Assembly: GCA_003389215.1 (NCBI GenBank)
Contig: QQVP01000019.1
Location: forward strand, 1-64,000
From: Planctomycetota bacterium
GTDB lineage: Bacteria; Planctomycetota; Planctomycetia; Pirellulales; UBA7805
Reading direction: 5' to 3'
Length of the DNA: 64,000 nt
Shown: piece after piece, positions 49,481 through 64,000 of the stretch
Numbering within the stretch: the first letter of the stretch is position 1
How the letters are laid out: each line of letters begins with the position of its first letter
Program-made: the position numbers and the translations under genes
The notes under the pieces: generated by a model
Database searches by the model: none
What the model saw: only the letters and a program-made list of their open reading frames with translations
What the model was told of the DNA's origin: nothing

Positions 49481-51109
49481 TTACTCTGCTTCCGTTTTGG
49501 CTTCCGTTTCGCCGACTTCTCCGGCGGGCGCGGCGGTGGCAGGGTCTTCCACCGGCTCGCGCAATGGTGGCACGTCCAGCGTGAGCGTCTGCAGGTATCC
49601 TTCTCGCTCGACGAGCAAGGGGATCGGCGAAGGCAGCGTGTTCACAAGGTTCAGAAATTCGGCGCGATCGGCAAACGTTCGCTCTCCCACCCGATAAATG
49701 CGGTCACGGAGCTTCAGTCCCGCGCGCGCCGCGGGCGACCCCGCCGTGACGCGATTGACGATCATCTCACCCGGCGACGCCTCGTCCGTGCGGAACGAGA
49801 TGCCCAGCCGCACCGGGGGCCCGTCGAGATTGACGCTGAGAAGCTGCGGTTCGGCCCCCTCGCCCCGCACGAAGCGCACCGCCACCGGACTCGTGGCCCA
49901 CAGAATCAAGCCGCGAAATTGTAGTCCGCTGGTGACCCTCTCGCCGGCAAATTCGAGGACACGATCGCCGGTGCGCAGCCCCTCTCGATACGCCGCGTAT
50001 CCGGGGACGACCTCGGTCAGCACCAGGCCCTCTTTCAGCTCCACATTCTCGTCGTCATCGGACCACCGCACACCCAGCCGCGGAGCCGCCGGTGCGAGCC
50101 GTCTGGCCGCGCGGCGTCGCTGCCACTCCGACTCGCCCCGGGCCGCGGCCCGAAAGCCAGGCAGCGATTCGCGAGTTGCCAACTCGTGCGTAAGGGCAAA
50201 GAGCAGCCGCGCCGCTTGCTCGATGCCGTCCAGGTTGAGCTTGTCCGCGTCGTCACTGGGGCGGTGATAGTCGTCGTGCAATCCCGTGTGCAGCATAAGA
50301 AAGGGAATGTTCCGCTCGAAGAAGGGATAGTGGTCGCTATTGGCGCGGTTCTTCCAGGTGAAATCGATCCGCAGATCGGCGTGTGGATTCTGTCGGCTTA
50401 CGATCTGACGGAGACCGGCCGCCGAACGGGTCCCGTGCACCGTCAGACGTTGCTCGCGGAGGCGGCCCACCATGTCGACGTTCACCATCACGGGAATCTT
50501 CTCGAGCGGTACGGTTGGCTGGCCGACCCAGTGCTTCGAGCCGAGCAGCCCCTGCTCTTCCGCGTCAAAGAAGACAAACAGCAACGATCGCCGCGGCCGA
50601 ATGCCCGAGGCACTGAAAGCCTCGATCACTTCCAATAATGCGGCGGTCCCACTGGCGTTGTCGTCGGCTCCATTGTGAATGTAGCCCGTCGGACCGTAGC
50701 TGTTCCGACTGTTGCCATAGCCGACGTGATCGTAGTGCGCGCTCACCACGATCCACTCCTTCGCCAGCTCCGCATCGGCGCCGTCGATGGCCACCAAGAT
50801 GTTGCGATAGTTGCCCCCAAAAGGTTGATAGTATTCGTCGGTCGTGCCGGCCGGCCGCACGTCGAGTTGCTTGAGTTGATCGACCAGGTAACCTGCCGCC
50901 GCTCGGCCGCCACGAGCCCCTGCCTCGCGTCCTTCGAAGATATCATCGGCCAGGGCCTCGACGAGGACCTTGGCCTCGTCACGGGTAATCGAACTGAGCG
51001 CGGCCTCGAACGCGGCATTCTCTGCCGCCGAGCCACCTTGCATGTGAGCGAAAAGCAACAGCAGCGTGGCGGGCAGCGTGCGGAATCGCAGAGCATAGTA
51101 CCTTGGCAT
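49481..51109 (-). CDS. M28-family zinc aminopeptidase with PDZ domains
   Basis: 542 residues. A signal peptide (about 1-27) is followed by a protease-associated-like region and an M28 peptidase domain. The zinc ligands are visible: H in VSAHYDHVG, D in NGADDNASG, the EE pair in FFDAEEQGLLG, D in VNVDMVGR, and a late H in HDDYHRPSDD. The C-terminal ~200 residues hold two PDZ-like domains (GDRVLEFAGERVTS; LRDRIYRVGERTFA). The ATG at 51109 begins the signal peptide; the longer frame to 51346 runs into the tRNA leader. It acts outside the cytoplasm. It is the last chromosomal gene before the tRNA and island. Confidence 0.87.
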   Translation of the reverse strand: MPRYYALRFRTLPATLLLLFAHMQGGSAAENAAFEAALSSITRDEAKVLVEALADDIFEGREAGARGGRAAAGYLVDQLKQLDVRPAGTTDEYYQPFGGNYRNILVAIDGADAELAKEWIVVSAHYDHVGYGNSRNSYGPTGYIHNGADDNASGTAALLEVIEAFSASGIRPRRSLLFVFFDAEEQGLLGSKHWVGQPTVPLEKIPVMVNVDMVGRLREQRLTVHGTRSAAGLRQIVSRQNPHADLRIDFTWKNRANSDHYPFFERNIPFLMLHTGLHDDYHRPSDDADKLNLDGIEQAARLLFALTHELATRESLPGFRAAARGESEWQRRRAARRLAPAAPRLGVRWSDDDENVELKEGLVLTEVVPGYAAYREGLRTGDRVLEFAGERVTSGLQFRGLILWATSPVAVRFVRGEGAEPQLLSVNLDGPPVRLGISFRTDEASPGEMIVNRVTAGSPAARAGLKLRDRIYRVGERTFADRAEFLNLVNTLPSPIPLLVEREGYLQTLTLDVPPLREPVEDPATAAPAGEVGETEAKTEAE

Positions 51110-51170
51110 GGCGGGGTCTCGGGGCCGAAAGCTGACAATTGGTGGGCAAGGCGTCGTGGGGCAGACTATC

Positions 51171-51198
51171 TTGCCACAGCGGGCGGAAAATCTACAAT
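51171..51198 (+). promoter_or_regulatory. Putative sigma-70 promoter of the tRNA-Ser gene
   Basis: TTGCCA at 51171-51176 and TACAAT at 51193-51198 are separated by 16 nt on the plus strand. Transcription would start near 51205 and run through the tRNA at 51351. No protein gene intervenes. The leader of about 145 nt contains the direct repeat at 51244-51277. Confidence 0.5.
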
Positions 51199-51243
51199 GG
51201 TGACTTGGCTGGCGGGGCGAATTTGCCCGGCGAGCCTTGTCGG

Positions 51244-51277
51244 TCCGAATGGGCACTTCGTCGTTCCGAACGGGCAC
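51244..51277. repeat. Short direct repeat upstream of tRNA-Ser
   Basis: TCCGAATGGGCAC (51244-51256) recurs as TCCGAACGGGCAC (51265-51277), with one mismatch at a 21-nt period. It lies in the tRNA leader, on the chromosome side of the island boundary. Its meaning is unknown. Confidence 0.5.
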
Positions 51278-51350
51278 ATATTTGTCCGATGGGAGGGAGC
51301 TGCCCATCGGCCGGAAGTGGCTGTCGAGGCGGACGTGTCGCGTCATCTTG

Positions 51351-51437
51351 GGAGAGGTGGCTGAGTGGTCGAAAGCGCGGGTTTGCTAAATCCGTGACCG
51401 GGCAACCGGTCCGCAGGTTCGAATCCTGTCCTCTCCG
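51351..51437 (+). tRNA. tRNA-Ser (anticodon GCU)
   Basis: The acceptor arm GGAGAGG (51351-51357) pairs perfectly with CCTCTCC (51430-51436), followed by discriminator G. The anticodon loop TTGCTAA has GCT at 51385-51387, reading serine AGC/AGU codons. The long variable arm (GACCGGGCAACCGGTC) is diagnostic of serine tRNA. The T-arm shows GGTTCGAATCC. CCA is not encoded. The 3' half is the probable integration target of the adjacent recombinase. Confidence 0.95.
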
Positions 51438-51449
51438 CTTCACGATTTT

Positions 51450-51501
51450 GGCTCTTCCCAACCTGCGGTTTAATAACAGGTTGCGAAGAGCCGGTTTTTT
51501 T
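51450..51501 (+). terminator. Intrinsic terminator after tRNA-Ser
   Basis: GGCTCTTCCCAACCTG (51450-51465) and CAGGTTGCGAAGAGCC (51477-51492) form a 16-bp stem with one mismatch and an 11-nt loop, followed by GG and seven T residues (51495-51501). It is placed to end tRNA-Ser transcription and so marks the inner limit of the chromosomal unit. Confidence 0.85.
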
Positions 51502-51532
51502 GACACAGCCGATTGTGTCAAGGTTGTGTCAA
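51500..51532. repeat. Repeat cluster TTGTGTCAA, possible recombinase arm sites
   Basis: TTGTGTCAA occurs at 51513-51521 and again at 51524-51532, separated by GG. An inverted copy, TTGACACA, is at 51500-51507. The three copies lie just beyond the tRNA terminator and in front of the recombinase gene's end. Short direct and inverted repeats here fit arm-type binding sites of a tyrosine recombinase or its excisionase. The rest of 51533-51667 shows no gene. Confidence 0.5.
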
Positions 51533-51667
51533 ACCGGACAGTTCTGTCCTCGCAAAGGACACGACCGATTCGCTGTGGCCGTGGCATCGCAGGCGTACAA
51601 TCCGATTCGACGATCACGTTTGTTACTTCCTCCCTGGTGGTCTGATACCTCAGGATCCCCAGTAACG

Positions 51668-51699
51668 AAAAACGGTCCGACGACTACGATGCGTCGGAC
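51668..51699 (-). terminator. Intrinsic terminator of the recombinase gene
   Basis: On the minus strand GTCCGACG and CGTCGGAC (51699-51692 and 51682-51675) form a perfect 8-bp stem with a 9-nt loop, followed by CG and five T residues (51672-51668). The first arm lies inside the last codons of the recombinase gene. The hairpin therefore ends recombinase transcription before the attachment region. Confidence 0.7.
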
Positions 51700-53300
51700 T
51701 CACCAATAAAGTCTAATTCTTGCATTTGTGATTGGGATTCCTTGTCGAATACGTGGTAGTAGCGTTGCACCATGAGGCTGCTGCGGTGGCCCAGCCATCG
51801 CATCAACAATTGCTCGGGTATACCACTGTTCGCGCATCGCGAACAGAAATAGTGCCTAAACGAATGGAGTCGTCCGTTCTTGAATCCGATCTCGTCATCG
51901 GCCGAAGGAAATTGCTCTCTTAGTGAATCAATTACGCGCGTGACGAGAAAATGACGCACGTTATCTGGGCGAAGAACTCCGCCTTTCATTGCGCGGACAA
52001 CTCGGCCATCTGTACCTCGCCGATCTAGTGAGTCCAGCACCGTGCGGAGGTCTGGGTGAATCGGAAAGGATCGTGTGCGACGGTTTTTGATCGACCGCGA
52101 ATTGGTCCTCTTTGCCCGTCGACTTCTCGTCTCGTCGATCAACGTGATGACATTGGCATCGAAGTCAACGTCAGTCCATCTCAGTCCGGCCAATTCCGAA
52201 ATGCGAAGACCAGTGCAACACAACGCGACGATTACGTCTGCGAGCCAGTGAAGACTGGGGTCCATTCGACAGAATGCGATCATCGCACTCACTTCTTCCG
52301 GCCGGTAACAGTACGTATCTGTGTCGGTTGGCTTGGCCATCGGAAGTTTAATCTTGCATGTGGGTGGCAGTCGTTCGGAATCAATCAGATAGTTGACGAG
52401 CTGCTTAAGCGTCGTCAGCTCGAGGAACTCGGTGGCGTATGCATAGCTTTCGCCGTCCAGCCACGCAGCGTACGCCTCCAGGTGCGATTTGGAGACTTGA
52501 TTCCAGAGAGTTACGTTGCGGCCGACGAGGAACGGAACAGCCTTATCAAAGACAGCCTTGTAGCGACTCAACGACTTCTCCGTGATACCGCCGACGACAG
52601 CCGGCCGCCGGCAATGTTCCAGATATAGCTCAACGCCTTCCGCCAACGTCACGCTCGGCGACCGCCCATGATCAGTGGGCGGCGGTTCGGCCACACCGTG
52701 CTGAACCGCGATCCTCAAATCGAGTTGCTTTAGGTTCTCGATTGCCTCAGTACGGTCGGACGTACGTAGTGTATGCCGACCGACTGGAGTTGAATTTGAT
52801 CGTCCATCGGCCCAGAAGACACTGCCGCGCTTGAAGAGCTTCCATTTATAGTATTGGCCGACGACAACTTCGTTCTTTTTCGTTTGGTGAACCTCCGATT
52901 CGTTAGTTAGTTGTTGATGATGAGCCGCGGCAAGTGTTTGCGGCTCCTGTAGCTCGAGTGAGTCGTCAGATATGCCGACGACATGTGTGGAACTATCATC
53001 GACGTCTGGCGACGAGTTGTCCTTTCGATTGATCGCAAAAACATGGGAGCTCTGTCGGGCTGCTGAGCAGCGTTCCAATGCGTCGGGCTCAAACATCATC
53101 TTCGAGCCCGGGCCAGCTATCTGAATCACCGGCAGAATGCCAGCGCGCTTCCACCGATACAGAGTAGAAACGGGAATGCTGCTGCGAGTGCTCAGCTCGC
53201 CGATGGTGAGCAGCTTCTGGCTAGGCTGAGCGCCGTTAGGATCCGTCGCTGAATCGGCGAGGTCCATCGGAGCGGCGATTGGAGAGCAGCCGTCGAGCAT
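51684..53300 (-). CDS. Tyrosine recombinase/integrase with N-terminal excisionase-like HTH
   Basis: 538 residues. The first ~80 contain a MerR/excisionase-type helix-turn-helix ([23 protein letters not shown]). A linker with a second domain that matches SAM-like core binding (about 215-320) follows, then the catalytic domain. The catalytic set is present: Arg in [14 protein letters not shown]479 and R482 in HSFRHYF, H505 in WLGHRS, and nucleophile Y514. It should catalyse integration and excision at the tRNA-Ser 3' end. The HTH fusion may combine integrase and excisionase roles or autoregulate. The ATG at 53300 is taken, with 53267 as an alternative; neither has a Shine-Dalgarno site. Confidence 0.9.
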
Positions 53301-53404
53301 CGGTCAGCAATTGGTTCGAGTGTGTTTGCGACGGCGTCGCCGCAACGTGTAAACCAATTGTCGCCGATGAGGTCACCGCAAAACTATTTGAGAACGCTTT
53401 GAGT

Positions 53405-53995
53405 TCACTTTGCGTTGCGGCGATGCCAATGGATGTATTTACCGCTCTTGCGATTGGAGAAGCGAATCTCCAATAGATGCTTGTTTAGCGAAAACAGGGT
53501 TTGATCTAACTTTAGCGGATCAATTTCTCGATTTTCGAGTACGATTGGCCAGTCAGCGTCCTGGAAGGCATCAAGGATTGTTTGAATGGGGGTTGGAGTC
53601 TCGTAAATTTTCACTTTCCGAATTGTCTTTCCCTCGTACGACAGGATCCCGCTCCGTCGATCCCACGATGGCCGCTCGTCGCCCAGTGCCGTGGTGGAAA
53701 GACCAGATTCTGAGCGAAGCCAATCGGCGTAGGTGGAGTCTATGAAGCCAATCCTCACTGCTGCCTCAATTAGACCGGCAATCGGAGCTTGGCCGAATTT
53801 GCGAATCCATATCTCCAGGACCTGTTCGCCGTTCGCCCGATCACGGATTAGTTGTGTACGTTCCTCGCTTGGGAACTGACGACGCAGCAATCGCATGAGT
53901 CCTGTGTAACTCGTAATCTCGCGGTACAGACGACCAAGTTCCGCCCGTACGTCTTGGGGGATGTCGTCTACGCACAGCTGCGAATCGCTGAACAT
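53405..53995 (-). CDS. Protein with death-fold-like N-terminus and winged-helix-like C-terminus
   Basis: 196 residues, start fixed by GGAGGT 6 nt before the ATG at 53995. Residues about 12-95 are predicted as five or six helices; the pattern VLEIWIRKFGQAPIAGLIEAAVRIG matches the W-x(4)-G-x(2)-P/A-x(3)-L spacing of death-fold domains and the related effector-associated domains of bacterial conflict systems. Residues about 108-196 (WDRRSGILSYEGKTIRKV, ILDAFQDADWP, LFSLNKHLLEIRF) resemble a winged-helix-like module common in planctomycetes and fused to many partners. No enzyme domain is present, so an adaptor or sensor role is the best guess. It lies next to the recombinase, on the same strand. 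The death-fold assignment is by eye only. Confidence 0.6.
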   Translation of the reverse strand: MFSDSQLCVDDIPQDVRAELGRLYREITSYTGLMRLLRRQFPSEERTQLIRDRANGEQVLEIWIRKFGQAPIAGLIEAAVRIGFIDSTYADWLRSESGLSTTALGDERPSWDRRSGILSYEGKTIRKVKIYETPTPIQTILDAFQDADWPIVLENREIDPLKLDQTLFSLNKHLLEIRFSNRKSGKYIHWHRRNAK

Positions 53996-54163
53996 CGTGG
54001 ACCTCCGTTTCGTTTTCGGCTCCTGATGTACCCCTCAATTCACCGTGACGAATTGACCTTCAGAATGCAAACAATTCTGCCGCCGTGCTGAAGGAGTGTC
54101 GTTAAAGCGTCACCGGTCTTGAGGTTACGTCATCTGATCGTCGCCAGTCGCGGGCAACACGCG

Positions 54164-54814
54164 CTATCGCGGAAACCGCGACCAGCGGGGCAAATGACCG
54201 TTCGACCCACGGGAATCAGATGGATCTGGGCGACTGTCCTCGCTGGACCCAGACTCCGTCGGCTGGTCGGTCGCCGGTCGCTCGACATTGACCATCCGGG
54301 TGAATTCACGATGCCATTCGGTATGGCTGGACCCTGTAAACGGCGCACTGTATTCGATTGCCGTGGACACGGGGAGCGACAAGTGGTGGCCGTCAACCAA
54401 GTCAAATGCCGCGGAATGCTGTCCATTGATACCGATGGTGTAAGTCACCGTCCACCGGGGACGGCCGGCGAGTCTCGCCAGCATCTGGAATGGTGGATCG
54501 ACGATCATGGATGTGGGTGTCCAATTAAGGTGCAGTCGTATTCGCGTGAATTGGTTAGGAGTCCTCCCAGCGCCCAACTGCGATCTGGCGAACCGTTCAA
54601 CGCCTTGTTGGTCAACATGCACATGATGGCCACGACATGTTTGCTTCAGTACGATGACGCTCGTGGTCAACAGAGGGTCGCTGGGAGGAGAAATACCACA
54701 GCAAACCACATTTACGTGGCTTACTCGTCGCAGGAAGTCGATCTTTGCCCACGCGTCTGGCGAGAATCGAATGGAAGTAATCCGCTGTCCTTGTGGCTCG
54801 TGCGCCTCAGCCAC
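54164..54814 (-). CDS. Degenerate JAB/MPN-domain-like protein
   Basis: 216 residues, GTG start at 54814, 42 nt after the 261-residue protein. The pattern IRFSPDAWAKI, CCGISPPSDPLL, GRTPNQFTRIRLH, and late RWTVTYTIG...PVSTAIEYSAPF matches a planctomycete JAB/MPN group known for the IWLHTHPGxSxxPSGxD metal site. Here the site reads RIRLHLNWTPTSMIVD: one histidine remains, and the second histidine, serine and spacing are lost. The upstream glutamate (normally TEIGGFGIS) is replaced by NVVCCGIS. It should be catalytically dead if it is a JAMM protein. The C-terminal ~50 residues are Ser/Arg/Pro-rich and disordered. An antisense frame of similar length on the plus strand is rejected. Confidence 0.55.
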   Translation of the reverse strand: MAEAHEPQGQRITSIRFSPDAWAKIDFLRRVSHVNVVCCGISPPSDPLLTTSVIVLKQTCRGHHVHVDQQGVERFARSQLGAGRTPNQFTRIRLHLNWTPTSMIVDPPFQMLARLAGRPRWTVTYTIGINGQHSAAFDLVDGHHLSLPVSTAIEYSAPFTGSSHTEWHREFTRMVNVERPATDQPTESGSSEDSRPDPSDSRGSNGHLPRWSRFPR

Positions 54815-54856
54815 TTCGATAGGCTTCTTTAGACCAGCTGGCCAGCAGCATCTTCA

Positions 54857-55642
54857 TCAAGCAACGCGAATCGAGGTTGAGACCGGCTGACGTGAAGAGA
54901 ATGGCATGTCGAATCGACTGTTGAAAAAGTCGAAATGCGACGCGCCTCGATAACCACAGAGGTCAGTCGACGGGTCTGAGAGTTGGAAGACCTGCTTGGT
55001 TGGAAACCGCCGCATGTCCGCAAATACGGCGACTGCCTTCTCCCAGTGTTGGCTCACCCAGTCAAGTGGATAGAGCACCAGGCCCGAGTACGAACGGCAA
55101 AGCCGGTTCATCATTTTTTGTGGCGAGACGCGAGCACGCTCCGCTACGACATCCAGCTCAGGGCCACTGCCATTAAGGAAGAGCGCGTCTTTGGCGCGAA
55201 AACCTGCCCACAGGTTGGGCAGACGCAGGACACGCGCCTTCGGTTGGTCGACATAGTACGCCAGTCGATCGAGGTTAAGGGCCAGGCGGAGCATGGTTTT
55301 GTTGGCCGGATCGATAAATGGACCATGCCCTCCGTCTCGCGGCTTCAGGCTGAGGTCCTTGCAGAAGCGACTATTCTCGCGACTGCCCCATTGCACTCCC
55401 CAAGGAACACGAGATGCGACGTAGCCGGCTAGGCGAATGCTTTGACCGCGTGGGTCGCTCGGGTGGTCATGTAGTACGACAATTACAAGGTTCTGAACCT
55501 CAATGAATCCGTCGACGATGGGGCCGCAGGTCACATAACTCAGGGCGCCTCTGTGGCGTGGATGTTGATATGTGCTGAGGTTTCGACGACGGACAATCTG
55601 TCGTCGCCAACGAGAGAGCAAATTTGTGTGAGACGTGATCAT
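54857..55642 (-). CDS. Hypothetical protein, third gene of a four-gene operon
   Basis: 261 residues, not recognised. The ATG at 55642 has AAAGGAG about 9 nt upstream and overlaps the end of the 73-residue gene by ATGA, so start and coupling are well supported. The N-terminal part is basic (LLSRWRRQIVRRRN). A strand-rich middle holds VIVVLHDHPSDPRG, and the C-terminal half has ALNLDRLAYYV and YSGLVLYPLDWVSQHW. There are no membrane segments or signal peptide, and no catalytic motif I can defend. The HDHP cluster resembles a JAMM histidine pair, but the aspartate that should follow is absent. Its role is tied to the downstream degenerate-JAB protein by operon context. Confidence 0.65.
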   Translation of the reverse strand: MITSHTNLLSRWRRQIVRRRNLSTYQHPRHRGALSYVTCGPIVDGFIEVQNLVIVVLHDHPSDPRGQSIRLAGYVASRVPWGVQWGSRENSRFCKDLSLKPRDGGHGPFIDPANKTMLRLALNLDRLAYYVDQPKARVLRLPNLWAGFRAKDALFLNGSGPELDVVAERARVSPQKMMNRLCRSYSGLVLYPLDWVSQHWEKAVAVFADMRRFPTKQVFQLSDPSTDLCGYRGASHFDFFNSRFDMPFSSRQPVSTSIRVA

Positions 55643-55860
55643 GTTGGGCGACTCCTTTTTACTGAGACAAGAGTGTGGACACGGGCTGGACGTATGGGCG
55701 GTGGGAATAGAACGGATCGCTGGGCGTCGAGTTCATCCCAGTCGACGACGAGCGGTGGTCGCTCTTGCTGAATGTCAGGGCCATTGCTTGAGTCGGTCGC
55801 CGATTCGGCGTTGAAGAAGTCAACAATTGGAGGTCGGAACTGTTGATGTGTTTGCGTCAT
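55639..55860 (-). CDS. Small hypothetical protein, second gene of the operon
   Basis: 73 residues, ATG at 55860 with AAAGGA about 11 nt upstream. Polar and proline-rich (PPLVVDWDELDAQRS, LFPPPIRPARV), likely largely unstructured; no match known to me. It overlaps the next gene by 4 nt. The overlap and Shine-Dalgarno site are the evidence that it is real. Confidence 0.55.
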   Translation of the reverse strand: MTQTHQQFRPPIVDFFNAESATDSSNGPDIQQERPPLVVDWDELDAQRSVLFPPPIRPARVHTLVSVKRSRPT

Positions 55861-55987
55861 CAGTACGGTTTTCCTTTCTGAAAGTTGCGTCGCGGGCGAT
55901 GCAACGTGAGCGCAAAGAATAGGCCCAGGGTCTCATTTTCTGAGAGACACTGGGCCGGTGGAGGATCCCACGTAGTAGGTTTACGTG

Positions 55988-56176
55988 TCAGATAGCGGCA
56001 TCCAAATCGTCTTCGGGTTGCCGGTCCGTGGCAGGGGCGGAAGAATCACGCTGCTGACGAAGCCAATGCAATGCCATTGCGTGGGCGATGCAATCGATGA
56101 AATCGTCGAGGGCGTTCGCCGCGACATCGTGTTCATCGGTGCTCGTCGTTCTTGGTGGCTCAGCCTTCAGGTTCAC
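55988..56176 (-). CDS. Small hypothetical protein, first gene of the operon
   Basis: 62 residues. The start is a GTG at 56176 with AAAGGAG exactly 6 nt upstream, a strong site that decides the frame. The middle (ALDDFIDCIAHAMALHWLRQQR) is amphipathic helix; both ends are polar. No known family. It is followed after 127 nt by the 73-residue gene on the same strand, so membership in the operon is likely. Confidence 0.5.
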   Translation of the reverse strand: MNLKAEPPRTTSTDEHDVAANALDDFIDCIAHAMALHWLRQQRDSSAPATDRQPEDDLDAAI

Positions 56177-56261
56177 AGTGGGCTCCTTTGATATTGAAAA
56201 AGGTCGATGCCCTAATTGTCTTCACCTTAAGATGACACGTTTCCCGCAGTTGTTTAGCGCG

Positions 56262-56546
56262 TTATTGGAACGCACGACTGCATGCCAGAAGCCAGGATTG
56301 GGCCGTATGCAACGACGGGCGGCGACGGTCTGATGCCACGTCGAGGCCGGTCGAAAAAGTCTTTGTCGGGATCTGAGCCAACCATAGGAGCAGGTGCGGC
56401 GGAAAGCCGCATGTCGGACAGGTGTGCGTAAACCACAGCAAAGAGACGCCCAAGTGCACAGCGCAGCCGAGAATGAAGAGAATAGCCATCGCGGCAGCGA
56501 GCAAGAGAAGCAACAGCCGACGAATGTTTTTCAGCCAGTCTGTCAT
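56262..56546 (-). CDS. Small membrane protein with CPTC motif
   Basis: 94 residues from the ATG at 56546 (MTDWLKNIRR). Two hydrophobic segments (LLLLLLAAAMAILFILG and HLLLWLAQI) flank a CPTCGF motif that could bind zinc or form a disulfide. Shine-Dalgarno evidence is weak. An overlapping frame at 56254-56598 competes for the same stretch but is charged and shows no domain. It may be the promoter-proximal partner of the small operon, or unrelated. Confidence 0.4.
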   Translation of the reverse strand: MTDWLKNIRRLLLLLLAAAMAILFILGCAVHLGVSLLWFTHTCPTCGFPPHLLLWLAQIPTKTFSTGLDVASDRRRPSLHTAQSWLLACSRAFQ

Positions 56547-56648
56547 GCAGGCGGCCGTCAGCTCTGCCACCATTGTAGTGAGTTAATTGGTCGGTCATGA
56601 TATCTCTAGTGAATCGATCCTGCCGACCTGTCTATTTGAGGGCACAAG

Positions 56649-58004
56649 ATGACAACCGCTGCGCTCGATTTCACGTATAAGTACGCGTTCCCGTCGGCTG
56701 TAGGCGAAACGCAAAGCGGTTTCGGACTGCGGTTGGCGACCTGTGGCGCGAAGCAACAGCAGCCGCACTTCTTCGATGGCAAATTGCTCGCCCCGCGCGA
56801 AATGGGTGAGATGCTGCTTGTGCTAAGCAACGTCGTGCGTACACATTTCTTCCTGCCCCGGCCTGCTCTACTTGATCCGGTCGTTACCACCAACGAAGCC
56901 GTCATCCGCTTCGAGGGATTCAGCGGTTGTTGTGGTGTTTATGCACGGGTCGATCTGCCGGCTGAGGCGTTTCAGAGCGATCACCTTGGTCGCGGCACGA
57001 CGAATGTAGACTTCAACGATCCGATGCGAGCTGCCCTTTCGCGTTTGCGCGATCACGACGATGCCAGGCTGGCCGTTGGCGCTGACGGCGTTGAACTGAG
57101 CAAGAATAACGAGACGGTGGTCGAGAAAAAGGTCAGACTGCCGATCCGCTGGATCAAGGGTTTCAGCGAAGTGCAACTCTATCAGCCAGCAATGCAAATC
57201 AAGCTGGAGTCGTCCGGCAATGAAGCACGACAGTTTGTTCGCAGTCTTCCCCGGGCTGGCGCACCGAAGCGCCCCTCCTACGTCACGCAAACAGGCAAGG
57301 CACTTCGGCTAAGTCAGCGAGCAAGCAAGGGGGCTGTCAAGTTTTTGGGTACGCACCGCGTTCGCGTACTCGAACCGCTCATGAATACCGCGAAGACATT
57401 GCGCGTATGGGCCGACGAAGATTCCGGTTCCACCGCATGGGAAGTCATTCTGCGAGCGGGTCGGTTCTTTCTCATGCTCAGCCCAGAGGTCTATCGCGGT
57501 TTTTCCGGCGAAGGCCAGGCTCTGGAGAAGCTCGCCGGTCACGACTGGCAGGATGCCCTCTCGCAAGTGCAAGACCAGCTTAAGTGGCAAGCGCAGCTCG
57601 ATGTCGACGACATCGCTGGCGAAACCGGGCTGGCGGAGAAGCAAGTCAACGCGGCGCTCGCGGTTCTCGGGTCGCGTGGATTAGCCGGATACGATGCGGG
57701 CCGCGAAGCCTATTTTCATCGCGAACTGCCGTTTGATCTTGCACAGGTCGAAGAGCTGCAGCCGCGACTCAAGGCCGCGCGAAAACTGCTCGATGGCGCC
57801 GGCGTGCGCGTGCTGCAGCAGGCCGTCGCCGATGAGCAGGACGTCGAGGTTGACGGCACGGACGTCAAACATCTTGTGCGTTTGCGGCCTTCAGGCGACA
57901 AGTGTTCCTGCCCCTGGTTCAGCAAGCATCTCGGACAGCGCGGGCCGTGCAAACACATTCTGGCTGCGCGAATTTTCACTGACGATGACGAATCACTCGA
58001 ATGA
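56649..58004 (+). CDS. SWIM zinc-finger protein
   Basis: 451 residues, ATG at 56649 with GAGGG about 7 nt upstream. The C-terminus carries a SWIM motif: C419, C421, C434 and H436 (CSC ... GPCKH). SWIM fingers bind DNA or proteins. The N-terminal 200 residues form a beta-rich domain I do not recognise; the middle (KTLRVWADEDSGSTAWEVILRAGRFFLMLSPEVYRGFSGEG) and a winged-helix-like stretch (IAGETGLAEKQVNAALAVLGSRGLAGYDA) fit the SWIM proteins found beside MoxR-ATPase and VWA genes. The DUF6493 gene follows within 24 nt, so the two act together. No MoxR or VWA gene is visible. Confidence 0.8.
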   Translation: MTTAALDFTYKYAFPSAVGETQSGFGLRLATCGAKQQQPHFFDGKLLAPREMGEMLLVLSNVVRTHFFLPRPALLDPVVTTNEAVIRFEGFSGCCGVYARVDLPAEAFQSDHLGRGTTNVDFNDPMRAALSRLRDHDDARLAVGADGVELSKNNETVVEKKVRLPIRWIKGFSEVQLYQPAMQIKLESSGNEARQFVRSLPRAGAPKRPSYVTQTGKALRLSQRASKGAVKFLGTHRVRVLEPLMNTAKTLRVWADEDSGSTAWEVILRAGRFFLMLSPEVYRGFSGEGQALEKLAGHDWQDALSQVQDQLKWQAQLDVDDIAGETGLAEKQVNAALAVLGSRGLAGYDAGREAYFHRELPFDLAQVEELQPRLKAARKLLDGAGVRVLQQAVADEQDVEVDGTDVKHLVRLRPSGDKCSCPWFSKHLGQRGPCKHILAARIFTDDDESLE

Positions 58005-58028
58005 TCGTCTGTGAGTAGGGGTACCGTG

Positions 58029-61000
58029 ATGTCACCAGAAGATCTGGAAAAATTTGTTGCTACGGCCGATTCCACGGGCCTCGCGGACGCAACGGCCAAC
58101 CTCACGGAAGCGGAGCGACGAAAGCTCTCCAAAACCGCCCAATCGCTGAAGCGCGAAATCGAGAGTGTCCGCTGGACGAATACCGGCACGCGCCGTGAGC
58201 CTCTCGATCGTTTGATGGGCTACCTCGGCCTTAAGAAGCTCAAGAAAAAAGTCGAGTTGTGGGACCAGTTGCGAACGGCGGATCTGGCACTGCTGGCCGT
58301 CGGTCCGCGCTCGGCTATCAAAAAGACCGGGATCCGTCGACCGTACGGCGAGTCCTTCGATCAGGAGTACGTTGGCGTGCGGATCCTCTGCGATCGAAGG
58401 CCCGAATGGATCGACGAACTGATCGACGACTTACTTTCTGGTGATCTCTGGACCATCGATTGGGACACACTCAGGCAGCTCATTAAGAAGGACGTTTGTC
58501 GAAAGCCGACTTCCGACGGCTACTACCGCCTGTTGACCCAAATGTCGTCGCATCGGCGTTACGAAAACAAGAACGTTACGCTTAGCGAGGAACTAGCCGC
58601 CGAGCCGGAGCTACTCGATGACCTGTGGAAATTTTTCGAGGTTGATACCGATGCGTTCGCGTACGAATGGGATCATCGTGCTGACAGCACATTTGAAAGC
58701 TGGCCCACCGCTTTTCGCAACCTTGCCGCGAGCGGCCACCTGGACCGCGCGCGTCTGCTCGACGCGACGCTCGCCGGTCTGACCACCGGTTTCAAACAGA
58801 ATATTCTTTCCGGGTTCGCGCGGCTCCATGAATCACTTGAGCCAACGGGCGACGAAATGGCGGCACGGCAAATGACCTATAGCGATCTGATCTCCTCGCC
58901 CGTGTCGCAAGTGGTGAGCTTCACAATCAAAATGATCAAGAAGCTGGACAAGGAAGCACAGCTCGACGACGAGGCGCTGGTGCTGTCAGCCGGCCGGGTG
59001 TTCGATGTGCGGACCAAGGGTCCGCCGAAATCCGTTATCACGCTTTTCAAAAAAGTTGCCAGGCGCCGGCCGAACCTGGCGCGACAAGTCGGCCGCGCGC
59101 TCGTGCCCGCGCTCGACCATCCGGCTGAAGACGTTCAAAGCGCCGCCATCGATCTGCTGGCAACCTTGGCGGATAAACTCGATACCAGTCTGGCCAGCCA
59201 AATCTACGATCGTCTGGACAGTCTACCCGCCACGATTCGTCCCCAAGCGGCTCAGCTTGTCGGGAAGCTAGGCGGAACGGTCGAAGATGCCCCAGTGGCC
59301 GAATCGACCGTCGACGTCGGCGCTGCTTTGGCCGAATGTCGCGAAAGGGCCGCGGCTCTCGATCCGCGCTGGCGGAAACTGGCTGGAATTGACGACGCGA
59401 TTGCCGCGGTGGAATCTTCTACCTGGGCTGGACCGCTAGACTTTGAAATGACGGATGTCCCGCTGCTCTCGGCCGTCGACTCGGTCGAACCGATCGAGTC
59501 GATGGAACAATTGATCGATGAAGTGGCGCACGCCCTCGAGTCGGTTGAATCGGCCATCAACGTCGAACGAATACTCGATGGCATGAGCCGCCTATCCGAT
59601 CAGCGCACCGATGACTTTGAGTGTCGCGTTGCCCCGTTGGTGAAGCGAGCTGCCAAAATTGCCAACGCCGAAGCGCGTGGGATTGCAAATCAATCCTTCA
59701 TGTTCCCACAGCTATCGCATCTGTTGGGCGTTTGGCTCGCCGACTCGCCCGATCGCGTGCTACCGGATTACCGCTATCATCGAGATCCAGAGCCCGTCTG
59801 CGATTTCATTAACGCCCGTCTTGAAGCGCTGTGTGTACAACTTGAGAGCCGCCGGGCAGCGCCGCTACTAGCAATGCCGACGCACGAGCGAGGCTGGATT
59901 GAGCCCACCGCGATTGTCGCCCGCTGGCAAGAAATCGAGAATCGCGATCTTGAGCCGAATCGATACGATCTGATGCAGGCGTTGCTACGCATGGCTCCCG
60001 AGGGACGAGATGTCGCGCTGACTGAGGCTGCGAAGCTGGCGCACCCCTGGGCGCGGCCTTTGCGATGGGCGCTCGGAAGCGACGACGCGCCGCAAACATC
60101 GGACGAACGATCGGCCGATGTTTGGCTCACAGCTGGCCGTTGTCGCTCGCCTTACGCCCGACTCAATGAACTGGTCGACCTCAAACTCGAAGACGCTGGG
60201 CCGGACGCGGTCGAGCCGGCACAATACCACTGGTCTGCCAAAATCCGCGAGACACATCATCAGGACGAAACCTATCGTCATGCCGTTATGACGGTGGACG
60301 TTCGCCCCGACATCAGCAAAAAGATGGCCAAACAGTGGTATTTCCCCACCGTCGGCATGCATGCGCCTACCCTAGGCTACTCGCCATATGGAGCAAATGG
60401 GGCGTGGATTTACGATTGGGTCAGCCTCGTCTGGCCAGCCAAGCTCGACGGCGTATTTGCCAACGCCATTCGTGCGATGATGAAGCGGATTGACGACACA
60501 AGCTCGACGCTCGACCCGAATCACGAGTTTCTCAATCCGCTCTTCGACGCCGATCGACCGCTAAGCAAGATCGCCCGACTGATGGCAGTGATTGGTATCG
60601 CTGGTCGCGATCAGGACGTTCGCGGCCTGGCAATCGATGCGGTTGTGGAAACGATTGCCGATGGTCGTTTACATCCCGACCAACTCGGCGAAACGCTCAC
60701 CACGCTCACGACGCGGTACTGGCTCAAGCTCAATCGCCTTTCGGAAACGCTTGCGGAGGTCGCGCGTGTTTCGCCACTGCACGCCTGGACGACGATGATC
60801 GCACTCGACCGACTTCTCGCAAGTTATGATGAATTACCGCGCGACGCCCATTACCTGCTGGCGCTGTTGCAGCAGCTTCATGCACAGTTTGGTTTGCCGC
60901 TGGTGCCCGAAGCGGCAAACATACTCGAGGGTGTTAAAGGTGCAAGCAAAACGGCAAAGCTGGCCAAGGCGCTCAACGGCTTCGCGCCGGCGGAACCGAC

Positions 61001-61097
61001 TGCCGCATGCGATGAAGCACGGCTGGCGAAACTCGAATCGCGGCTGACTCGCGCCGAGCGCTGGGCAGGCGTGTGCGCCATGTCGGACACCGTTTGA
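58029..61097 (+). CDS. DUF6493-family protein (HEAT-like repeats)
   Basis: 1022 residues from the ATG at 58029, preferred because AGGGG lies about 8 nt upstream; a GTG at 58011 would add six codons. The N-terminal region matches DUF6493: a helical stretch, CDRRPEWIDELIDDLLSG, then ESWPTAFRNLAASGHLDRARLLDATLAGL and ARLHESLEPTGDEMAARQ. HEAT-like helical repeats follow (VGRALVPALDHPAEDVQSAAIDLLATLAD), and a variable C-terminal half. The family is often encoded next to SWIM proteins; molecular function is not established. The size and repeats suggest a scaffold that binds other proteins. Confidence 0.75.
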   Translation: MSPEDLEKFVATADSTGLADATANLTEAERRKLSKTAQSLKREIESVRWTNTGTRREPLDRLMGYLGLKKLKKKVELWDQLRTADLALLAVGPRSAIKKTGIRRPYGESFDQEYVGVRILCDRRPEWIDELIDDLLSGDLWTIDWDTLRQLIKKDVCRKPTSDGYYRLLTQMSSHRRYENKNVTLSEELAAEPELLDDLWKFFEVDTDAFAYEWDHRADSTFESWPTAFRNLAASGHLDRARLLDATLAGLTTGFKQNILSGFARLHESLEPTGDEMAARQMTYSDLISSPVSQVVSFTIKMIKKLDKEAQLDDEALVLSAGRVFDVRTKGPPKSVITLFKKVARRRPNLARQVGRALVPALDHPAEDVQSAAIDLLATLADKLDTSLASQIYDRLDSLPATIRPQAAQLVGKLGGTVEDAPVAESTVDVGAALAECRERAAALDPRWRKLAGIDDAIAAVESSTWAGPLDFEMTDVPLLSAVDSVEPIESMEQLIDEVAHALESVESAINVERILDGMSRLSDQRTDDFECRVAPLVKRAAKIANAEARGIANQSFMFPQLSHLLGVWLADSPDRVLPDYRYHRDPEPVCDFINARLEALCVQLESRRAAPLLAMPTHERGWIEPTAIVARWQEIENRDLEPNRYDLMQALLRMAPEGRDVALTEAAKLAHPWARPLRWALGSDDAPQTSDERSADVWLTAGRCRSPYARLNELVDLKLEDAGPDAVEPAQYHWSAKIRETHHQDETYRHAVMTVDVRPDISKKMAKQWYFPTVGMHAPTLGYSPYGANGAWIYDWVSLVWPAKLDGVFANAIRAMMKRIDDTSSTLDPNHEFLNPLFDADRPLSKIARLMAVIGIAGRDQDVRGLAIDAVVETIADGRLHPDQLGETLTTLTTRYWLKLNRLSETLAEVARVSPLHAWTTMIALDRLLASYDELPRDAHYLLALLQQLHAQFGLPLVPEAANILEGVKGASKTAKLAKALNGFAPAEPTAACDEARLAKLESRLTRAERWAGVCAMSDTV

Positions 61098-61316
61098 CTT
61101 TTTCAAAAGACACGCGTCGCGATTGGCGAGTGCACTGCTCGTTCCCTGGCCGTTGGGACTTACAAGAAAATACGTGCAACACTAGCGCGCACAGATGAGG
61201 GCGATTTAGGCAGCCTGTCGACGGCCCGGTAGCACGCACGACTCGGAAGGCGCCTTGTTACTGCCACCCCAGACGTAGCTCGACCTGCGTCAACGATGTA
61301 AAATCTATTTCGTGCC

Positions 61317-61745
61317 ATGAATGAGTTCCGGGCATTTCCGGGGCAGCTCAAGATGCCATTTCCCGTTGACATCAAGTACGTCACCGAGACCGAACGCAAG
61401 CTGGGCGTGAAGTTTCCGCCGTCGTATGTCACACGAATAGTGAAGTCGAACGGCGGAGAGGTGGAGGCTCCGCCGGATGTATGGTCGCTCTACCCAATCT
61501 ACGACACAAGTGACAAGAAACGCCTTAAGCGTACCTGCAATGACGTCGTGCGTGAGACGAAAGCCGCGAAAGAGTGGCCCGACTTTCCGCCGGCTGCGGT
61601 CGCGATTGGCGCGAACGGATGTGGCGATCAACTTGTCCTTATCCCGCAGGCTGACGCTCCAGACATTCTCGGCAGCGAAGTCTATTGGTGGGACCACGAG
61701 ACGGGAGAATTGAATAAAGTGGCGGATGACCTGGCCGACCTATGA
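61317..61745 (+). CDS. SMI1/KNR4 (SUKH) family protein, likely immunity protein
   Basis: 142 residues. The signature at about 18-40 (TETERKLGVKFPPSYVTRIV) and the later VYWWDHETGEL fit SUKH domains, which are best known as immunity proteins against polymorphic toxins. A TAAAAT at 61299-61304 could be a -10 element. It starts the plus-strand run of small genes after a 219-nt gap. No toxin gene is next to it, so the cognate toxin is unknown. Confidence 0.75.
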   Translation: MNEFRAFPGQLKMPFPVDIKYVTETERKLGVKFPPSYVTRIVKSNGGEVEAPPDVWSLYPIYDTSDKKRLKRTCNDVVRETKAAKEWPDFPPAAVAIGANGCGDQLVLIPQADAPDILGSEVYWWDHETGELNKVADDLADL

Positions 61746-61794
61746 CGTCAGCGTCCCCGTATCCCAGCCCTTAACGGGCGATCAAGACGGGACA

Positions 61795-62067
61795 ATGAAA
61801 ATGCGACAACCTGGCACGCACCAACACGAAATCCACGCGACGATTCAATCACTCATCTCGAATAACTACCCAGGCTGTTCTGCCGAATTTATCGGTGACC
61901 CAACTGGCAACATTCGACGCCGTTCGTTCGGATTCCGTATCGTTGACTCCAAGGGCCAACATCGAACCGAGACGATCTGGGTAGGACCGTCGTTTTATAA
62001 ACTGCCGAACAAACAGTGGCTGGCGGAAGAAGTCAAGCGAGCCCACGGTACATTCTCCGATTGCTAA
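61795..62067 (+). CDS. Hypothetical protein in the immunity-like array
   Basis: 90 residues from the ATG at 61795; an ATG at 61801 is an alternative. It has a helix-strand beginning (HEIHATIQSLISNNYPGCSAEF), then two likely strands (SFGFRIVDSKG, TETIWVGPSFYKL) and a helical end. No family is recognised. It sits 49 nt after the SUKH gene. Confidence 0.5.
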   Translation: MKMRQPGTHQHEIHATIQSLISNNYPGCSAEFIGDPTGNIRRRSFGFRIVDSKGQHRTETIWVGPSFYKLPNKQWLAEEVKRAHGTFSDC

Positions 62068-62106
62068 CATCGCCCAACAGATTCGGACAACTGGGTCCTT
62101 CGAGAA

Positions 62107-62508
62107 ATGCTGCGAGATCAAATCCAATCAATTCTGAAGGAACGATACGGTTCCATCTCGTTCGAGTTTGGTGGCCCGTCAGAGTCAGTTGTGCGGGTCG
62201 CTTCTTGCTGCCAGGATATTGGCGAACTTCAGATCTACGACGACGGCGACGAAGCAACTATCTACGTCACGGAAGTTACTCACGGCCACTTCAACCCATA
62301 CGATGCAACGCAAGGTGAAGCCGAGCTTGTACAGTGGATCGTTGATGAAGTCGTAGAGTTCCTTGACGCGCTCTTTGAGGACCGTGTTCTGCTTTACCGA
62401 TCGCCTGACCGTGGAATGGGCGGGTGGATCATGTTCGACGACGCGATCGACAAGTCGGAGATGGTAGCTGGGAGAGAATATTTCGTGTGGTCAGGTCCGG
62501 TAGCCTAG
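62107..62508 (+). CDS. Hypothetical protein in the immunity-like array
   Basis: 133 residues, ATG at 62107. An N-terminal helix (LRDQIQSILKERYG) precedes strands ELQIYDDGDEATIYVT, an acidic helix (AELVQWIVDEVVEFLDALFED) and a strand-rich end rich in aromatic residues. The acidic, compact design is typical of immunity proteins. No named family fits. It is 39 nt after the previous gene. Confidence 0.55.
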   Translation: MLRDQIQSILKERYGSISFEFGGPSESVVRVASCCQDIGELQIYDDGDEATIYVTEVTHGHFNPYDATQGEAELVQWIVDEVVEFLDALFEDRVLLYRSPDRGMGGWIMFDDAIDKSEMVAGREYFVWSGPVA

Positions 62509-62527
62509 ACGCAACATAGGAATGCCG

Positions 62528-62827
62528 ATGCGTTGGGAAACTAGCCGAGGCGATGAATGGTGGTGCGAAACTGCGTCAGGCAGCTTTCTCGGTGTTGGAC
62601 AAGTATCTGGTGCCTTCCTTATCGAGTTAGCTAGCGGTACGTCACAATCGGTGGCGAAGCTCGTAATTGAGCAAGCATTTGAGCAGTTTCCCGAGGCGGA
62701 GATCCGACTCTACATCACTCGCGCAAGTCAGGCGGTAGCTGAGTCCTTGTGCGACTGTGGACTTGAGTTCGTAGACACCGACAATCCCAAGCACCTCCGC
62801 GTCATCGCGAGAGATTCAGCGGGATAG
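62528..62827 (+). CDS. Hypothetical protein in the immunity-like array
   Basis: 99 residues. The ATG at 62528 has AGGA 6 nt upstream; an ATG at 62522 would add two residues but would touch the AGGA. It has a strand-rich start (WWCETASGSFLGVG) and one long helix (SVAKLVIEQAFEQF), then a strand-helix-strand end. No family recognised. It starts 19 nt after the preceding stop. Confidence 0.5.
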   Translation: MRWETSRGDEWWCETASGSFLGVGQVSGAFLIELASGTSQSVAKLVIEQAFEQFPEAEIRLYITRASQAVAESLCDCGLEFVDTDNPKHLRVIARDSAG

Positions 62828-62877
62828 GCGAAGTACTCAAGTGATTACGGGACATCCTATTGATCACCAAATCACAA

Positions 62878-63309
62878 ATGATGCCGCTGCTCGTTGAGGC
62901 GTGTCCGTCGTATGCGGAGCGCTTTCGCCGGTATCTGGCCGACAACTACGACGCAGGGGATGAACGACTCCCGTACTGCGAGCTGGGTGACCTAGTGTCT
63001 CACCTCTGTGATCAACTCGAAAAGCGGGATACGTCGGAGTTCGCCGACGTATTCCGAGTTGTTGAGCGACTTCATGTCGATGGCGACTCTTACGTAAAGG
63101 AGGCGGCAACGATCGGCCTGTTGGAAGGCATCCAGAATGTGGCGTCACATTGCGACACGATTTCCCCCGATCAGTTTGAGACGTACCTCGGGACTGTAAG
63201 CCGCCGGTGGTGGCATGAGCTGAATGCCTTCTGGCAGGGCAAGCGCAAACACCTGGGTGAGGGATTGGAAAAGTCCGAGAATGAACCGCCGGCCGGTCCA
63301 GCGACTTAG
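62878..63309 (+). CDS. DUF7674-like protein in the immunity-like array
   Basis: About 143 residues, helical. The pattern LLVEACPSYAERFRRYL, YCELGDLVSHLCDQLEK, FRVVERLHVDGD and IGLLEGIQNVA fits the small helical DUF7674-type proteins seen in immunity neighbourhoods; I am moderately sure of the match. The start is uncertain: ATG 62878 is chosen, but a TTG at 62860 would add six residues. The C-terminal ~20 residues are polar. Confidence 0.55.
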   Translation: MMPLLVEACPSYAERFRRYLADNYDAGDERLPYCELGDLVSHLCDQLEKRDTSEFADVFRVVERLHVDGDSYVKEAATIGLLEGIQNVASHCDTISPDQFETYLGTVSRRWWHELNAFWQGKRKHLGEGLEKSENEPPAGPAT

Positions 63310-63361
63310 AATTGCTGGGCAAAACGGCGAGTGAACTATCGATAAACTGCAAACACATAAC

Positions 63362-63811
63362 ATGTTCGACGAATCCTGTTCTGACAGCCCGGACTCACGG
63401 CACTTCGCAATTCTGACCTACGCGGGCGAAATCCGGTTCGGCCCAGCCTATTTCACACTTTCAATCGACGGCCGCTCTTTCGGCGAGCGGCTATTCGGCC
63501 ATGGAGTACTATGGTCACCGGATAGTGCGATCGTCTGCGTAACCGAGTGGCACACGATCGACTACGAGGCTGGGCCAATAACGTCGCTATTGCTAATTCG
63601 TCCTGGTGACTGGACATACTATTCCTTTCCTCGTGTGACCAAGGGCTTCGCGTCACCCAATTACTTTATTGATGATTCGCTCGTATTGTGTCACACGGAC
63701 CTGCATCACGGTGGTAGCGTTCATGCGAACGTCGAATTGGAAACCGACCTAGGCAAAATTGAAGACTGGCAACCGATTGAGTGGCCGGATCTGCCGACAC
63801 GCGTATCGTGA
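63362..63811 (+). CDS. Hypothetical beta-rich protein in the immunity-like array
   Basis: 149 residues, ATG at 63362. Many short strands separated by turns (FAILTYAGEIRFG, YFTLSIDGRSFG, VLWSPDSAIVCVTEW, TSLLLIRPGDWTYYSF) suggest a small beta-propeller-like or sandwich fold. No signal peptide and no known family. It is 52 nt after the preceding gene. Confidence 0.5.
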   Translation: MFDESCSDSPDSRHFAILTYAGEIRFGPAYFTLSIDGRSFGERLFGHGVLWSPDSAIVCVTEWHTIDYEAGPITSLLLIRPGDWTYYSFPRVTKGFASPNYFIDDSLVLCHTDLHHGGSVHANVELETDLGKIEDWQPIEWPDLPTRVS

Positions 63812-63817
63812 ATCCCG

Positions 63818-64000
63818 ATGCGAAATTACTTTCGTGTGGTTGACAAGTCGAACGAGCCAGGAATCGAAAATGTCGCGGCAGTCGTTCGCGCGCTGATCGA
63901 GTCGAATCCCACCATCTCCGAGCTTCGGCCACCGGAGCGACAACCGCGAGGCGGCTACTCGCTGCTTCTTGACGTTCCAGACGAAGACGTGGAGGTCGTA
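63818..64000 (+). CDS. Partial hypothetical protein at the right edge
   Basis: An open frame starts at the ATG at 63818, 6 nt after the previous stop, and runs to the window edge (61 codons, no stop). The visible part begins MRNYFRVVDKSNEPGIENV and has a helix (AAVVRALIESN) then an acidic stretch. It continues the array. No family is recognised; the C-terminal end is outside the window. Confidence 0.45.
   Translation, partial: MRNYFRVVDKSNEPGIENVAAVVRALIESNPTISELRPPERQPRGGYSLLLDVPDEDVEVV

Follow-up and report, generated by a model that had tools for sequence, protein, structure and literature searches.

The SWIM-DUF6493 gene pair of a planctomycete mobile element and the kinship, by sequence, of its SWIM protein to that of type XIII retrons

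What is a gene for a SWIM zinc-finger protein doing beside a gene for a very large DUF6493 protein, with no other recognisable partner, on a mobile element? A sequence-only reading of this locus had stated that SWIM proteins of this kind are commonly encoded together with a MoxR ATPase and VWA proteins, as in the neighbourhood of E. coli yehQ, and had proposed that the two genes could be a minimal version of that system with a role in defence or competition. The locus lies in a window of 64,000 nucleotides, the whole stretch of DNA analysed, which covers positions 1 to 64,000 of contig QQVP01000019.1 of a Planctomycetota bacterium (GCA_003389215.1). We know of no reported function for DUF6493; we found no paper that names it, and the SWIM-DUF6493 pair is undescribed as far as we searched.

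A gene pair on a tRNA-Ser element

The SWIM protein gene (56649..58004, forward strand) encodes 451 amino acids and matches PF04434 (E 3.3e-6). It is followed by the DUF6493 protein gene (58029..61097, forward strand), which encodes 1022 amino acids and matches PF20103 (2.7e-30), PF25148 (8.5e-25) and PF25149 (7.9e-13). The open reading frame of the latter opens at GTG 58011. Since relatives begin at the residue encoded by ATG 58029, we place the start there, which gives the gap of 24 nucleotides between the two genes that had been described. At its end the DUF6493 gene has a terminator-like stem, a kind of site that is no commoner than in shuffled sequence. The roughly 2.6 kb upstream of the SWIM gene (53996-56648) hold weak open reading frames only, without a reverse transcriptase (RT) or an Rfam match, and are possibly decayed sequence. 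Just 3' of the pair, at 61317-63811, stands a series of short genes, including a SUKH (SMI1/KNR4) protein, a DUF7674 protein and small unassigned open reading frames, which looks like an immunity-gene array.

The pair sits on a mobile element that has integrated at a tRNA gene, so that the island setting first proposed for it is borne out. The integration target is tRNA-Ser(GCT) (51351..51438, forward strand; found by ARAGORN and by the Rfam tRNA model, the sole Rfam match at 51000-64000 in a search without a type XIII RNA model). A 17-nucleotide direct repeat of the tRNA 3' end, the near att core (51424..51440, forward strand), has an exact far copy outside the window, at contig positions 89625-89641, which sets the size of the element at about 38.2 kb. 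Few 17-letter repeats occur in this contig, and chance alone would not be expected to produce one beginning at the 3' end of a tRNA. Just inside the element, on the reverse strand, lies the gene for a tyrosine integrase with an N-terminal helix-turn-helix (51684..53300; PF00589, 6.8e-21), and at the tRNA-Ser the G+C content drops from about 0.64 outside to about 0.55-0.58 within the element. The contig ends at 89845, just past the far repeat copy, and the far flank is beyond it.

The lack of MoxR and VWA partners also stands when the view is extended to the right as far as the contig end. In profile searches of the whole host genome (5.55 Mb in 135 contigs), MoxR (PF07726), VWA (PF13519) and reverse transcriptase (PF00078) were all absent from the contig of the pair; MoxR and VWA genes are present in the genome on other contigs only. 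To the right of the window, at contig 71021-79555 (L005:11021-19555), the element also carries an RNA-repair cassette of Hen1, two RlaP-type nucleotidyltransferase-like genes, Thg1 and the kinase-phosphatase-ligase Pnkp, which adjoins tRNA-Arg(TCG) and a second odd tRNA (L005:10551-10745). This mobile set is suggested to serve in tRNA repair or as a decoy. Within it a DUF5677 protein (L005:12475-13995) matches PADLOC DitA with E 2.1e-50.

The two-gene form among relatives

When GTDB genomes were scanned with the SWIM alignment, at least 579 relatives were confirmed; the best 80 of them, which are the nearest relatives rather than a random sample, were read. DUF6493 is adjacent to the SWIM gene in 77 of these best 80 (73 downstream, 2 upstream and 2 divergent), while two of the remaining three lie at a contig edge and one is interrupted by an integrated element. 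This last one is a Myxococcales locus (L059:2339-5445) in which only a short start of DUF6493 remains, with an integrase and tRNA-Leu after it. The hosts of the best 80 belong to at least eight phyla: Pseudomonadota, Planctomycetota, Actinomycetota, Myxococcota, Melainabacteria/Cyanobacteriota, Gemmatimonadota, Lentisphaerota and Rhodothermota. Given that each gene has a match among curated families and that the linkage holds in nearly all of these relatives, across many phyla, the pairing is far beyond chance. The two-gene form is the normal form across phyla, and the idea that such SWIM proteins commonly travel with MoxR and VWA genes does not hold. Clustering of neighbouring genes, taken from open reading frames, gave scattered or generic groups only, with no conserved third gene. 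The commonest spacing of the two genes among relatives is a 4-nucleotide overlap, which suggests that they are translationally coupled. Two tandem DUF6493 genes are present in four of the loci read.

The spread of the pair is patchy. DUF6493 was found in 11 of 392 Planctomycetota genomes, in all 10 others of which a SWIM homologue is directly adjacent, and other phyla are represented among the relatives closest in the tree. The survey of pairs that had been called for also turned up copies on plasmids, in an alphaproteobacterium, a betaproteobacterium and actinomycetes, which are annotated by domain name only, and on integrated elements. The plasmid pairs of Asticcacaulis, Diaphorobacter and Streptomyces consist of the same two genes in the same order as here, in hosts of other phyla; the Diaphorobacter plasmid, unlike this locus, carries a second DUF6493 gene in tandem with the first. 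DUF6493 is missing beside a divergent SWIM gene on one Streptomyces plasmid. An integrase was detected near only 3 of about 95 other loci screened, an undercount, as three integrase queries were used. The mobile setting is therefore real at this locus but does not define the pair. Phage records gave no match to the SWIM gene. A 74-kb IMG/VR viral contig holds a weak partial relative (L145:8001-8615) that is 25% identical across the winged helix and the finger. A genome scan by peptide patterns from DUF6493 alone gave no matches because the family is too divergent for such patterns, whereas the SWIM alignment succeeded.

Predicted folds and kinship to type XIII retrons

The confident structure model of the SWIM protein (pLDDT 89.5, pTM 0.87) predicts, unexpectedly, a two-domain clamp fold of the PCNA type, followed by a winged helix and a zinc finger. 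The 50 best PDB matches of the first 280 or so residues, found by Foldseek, were all sliding clamps, with E-values that start at 4.6e-10, TM-scores of about 0.55-0.68 relative to the target length and rmsd values mostly of 5-7 Å, and a viral structure library independently returned PCNA and DnaN clamps. The predicted clamp region (about residues 40-280; 56766..57488, forward strand) has the strand and helix order of PCNA, with four beta-alpha-beta3 units. The predicted winged helix (about residues 300-360; 57546..57728, forward strand) draws on weak profile matches to winged-helix regulators and on the helices of the model. In the SWIM finger of the form CxC...CxH (residues 410-440; 57876..57968, forward strand), C419, C421, C434 and H436 are invariant in the 80 sequences, as are many residues of the clamp region, for example D76, R87, E89, C94, E159, R167 and W168. 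Unlike PCNA and DnaN, the putative clamp is fused to a winged helix and a finger, and the model has a helix where PCNA has its interdomain loop. Sequence searches matched the protein to no clamp and to no convincing solved structure. Given this, and the no more than mildly basic character of the candidate inner helices, a trimeric ring round DNA is put forward as a possibility. The DUF6493 model is a HEAT-type alpha solenoid with one long beta hairpin, and its Foldseek matches are HEAT proteins.

A reduced yeh-type system is refuted as far as can be judged from sequence. Although E. coli yehLMPQ (MoxR, YehM, VWA and SWIM) contains a SWIM-finger protein, the likeness to YehQ (hhalign probability 1.4) is confined to the Cys/His finger, and no relation of DUF6493 to YehM or YehI was seen. 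Nor do the 80 loci contain any homologue of YehL, YehM, YehP, YehQ or YehI.

A closer relative lies elsewhere. Retrons are defined by their reverse transcriptase, and those of type XIII are predicted anti-phage systems; we know of no mechanism reported for them. The make-up of type XIII is used here as it follows from the PADLOC model names and from the loci that we read. The PADLOC model SWIM_XIII matches all 80 SWIM proteins of the alignment, the one described here with E 2.4e-59, and its scores separate RT-linked proteins (about 440-785 bits) from the DUF6493-linked branch (about 178-199 bits). A search of Myxococcota with this model gave two score classes, of about 440-785 and about 178-192 bits, from which 10 loci were read. 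In all eight high-scoring loci a retron-type RT directly follows the SWIM gene, and RT_XIII was the best match of all three RTs scanned from this class; four of five scanned proteins upstream of a retron-branch SWIM gene match HEAT-ARM_XIII or WGR_XIII. The two low-scoring loci lack an RT and carry DUF6493. In one Myxococcus genome, G394, two type XIII SWIM-RT loci and one SWIM-DUF6493 pair occur together (L135, L136 and L137).

The two SWIM branches align over their full length (hhalign, 443 columns, probability 100, E 1.5e-49), and the split between them is fully supported in the tree. An RT profile found no RT in any of the related SWIM-DUF6493 loci searched, about 9 kb to each side where contigs allow. 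On these comparisons the SWIM gene of this locus belongs to an RT-free sister branch of the type XIII retron SWIM protein, and the retron proteins, being homologous over the same stretch, should share the predicted clamp fold. In both systems a SWIM protein is paired with a HEAT-type protein. The differences are nonetheless clear: the retrons have an RT and the pair has none, so that msDNA is not expected from it; their SWIM proteins form a separate clade and are longer (about 550 against about 455 amino acids); their gene order is HEAT-SWIM-RT, whereas here it is usually SWIM and then HEAT; and their partner is HEAT-ARM_XIII or WGR_XIII, whereas DUF6493 is not recognisably HEAT-ARM_XIII. DUF6493 proteins matched no PADLOC model, those of HEAT-ARM_XIII and WGR_XIII included, and against a profile of the retron HEAT partners they showed no sequence relation, the two sharing the same general fold class only. 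The combination of SWIM-clamp protein and HEAT-type partner is seen with an RT and also without, and we suggest from this that SWIM protein and solenoid may be the working core and the RT an addition.

Proposed action and competing explanations

We believe, tentatively, that the most likely explanation is an RT-independent branch of the clamp and scaffold pair of type XIII retrons: a self-contained and tightly coupled module of a clamp-winged helix-SWIM protein and a HEAT solenoid, sister to the retron SWIM protein, that would act on DNA, probably in defence. The SWIM protein would bind DNA through its PCNA-like region, its winged helix and its finger. The DUF6493 solenoid would bind the SWIM protein and either keep it inactive or place it on DNA. 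When foreign DNA, or a replication or recombination structure, is sensed, the complex may settle on the DNA, whereupon replication of the invader would be blocked or the cell stopped. Four observations favour defence: the SWIM homologue is a retron component, the distribution is patchy (11/392 genomes of the phylum), other phyla are found among the nearest relatives, and plasmids and islands carry copies. The defence role raised at the outset thus gains indirect support, through kinship to a retron component. Against it count the lack of a detected integrase at most loci and of a phage record with the SWIM gene; against the explanation as a whole, that the clamp is a fold match only and that by sequence DUF6493 has no kinship to the retron HEAT partners.

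The main rival, which we consider unlikely, is that the pair assists DNA replication or recombination, as a clamp-like processivity factor or a recombination mediator with a HEAT partner, and is cargo or chromosomal with no part in defence. The clamp fold and the SWIM finger would suit such a helper, as would the many ordinary chromosomal settings in which no integrase was detected, and the eukaryotic SWIM proteins Shu2 and SWS1 act in recombination. Its patchy distribution, its copies on plasmids and integrated elements, and the presence of a related SWIM protein inside type XIII retrons argue the other way. Still less probable is a large pair of the toxin-antitoxin kind, in which one protein is toxic, perhaps through a catalytic site of the clamp-like region that has gone unrecognised, and is held in check by the other. 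Retrons generally are tripartite toxin systems, and strict pairing, overlapping genes and the many invariant residues of the clamp-like region are consistent with this idea, but the large size of both genes counts against it, and neither showed a catalytic fold.

That this locus is a type XIII retron that has decayed and lost its RT would account for the SWIM_XIII homology and for a contig without an RT. We regard it as very improbable, given that both genes are intact, that the RT profile found no RT in any SWIM-DUF6493 locus searched and that the RT-free loci make up a widespread branch with a partner of its own, DUF6493; as a local decay it is rejected on the tree, where that branch is a separate clade. 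Least credible of all is the minimal yehQ-type MoxR/VWA/SWIM system proposed in the sequence-only reading: a SWIM finger is common to both kinds of system, but there is no homology outside it, no partner is shared and the contig carries neither MoxR nor VWA.

There is also a wider reading, which we think doubtful: a bacterial DNA-guarding machine of PCNA fold, winged helix and SWIM finger, run by a HEAT solenoid, may stand alone in at least eight phyla, and type XIII retrons may be the version to which an RT was added as a sensor or switch. The PCNA-type fold is normally archaeal, eukaryotic or viral, and its prediction here suggests that it has a broad bacterial branch, not remarked on until now, that lies outside replication. 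The link to retrons gives both DUF6493 and type XIII retrons a testable shape, namely a predicted clamp-like DNA-binding protein and a solenoid partner, with and without an RT. A comparison of the RT and RT-free forms would reveal the contribution of the retron part, and Myxococcus G394, which holds both, is a good strain for it.
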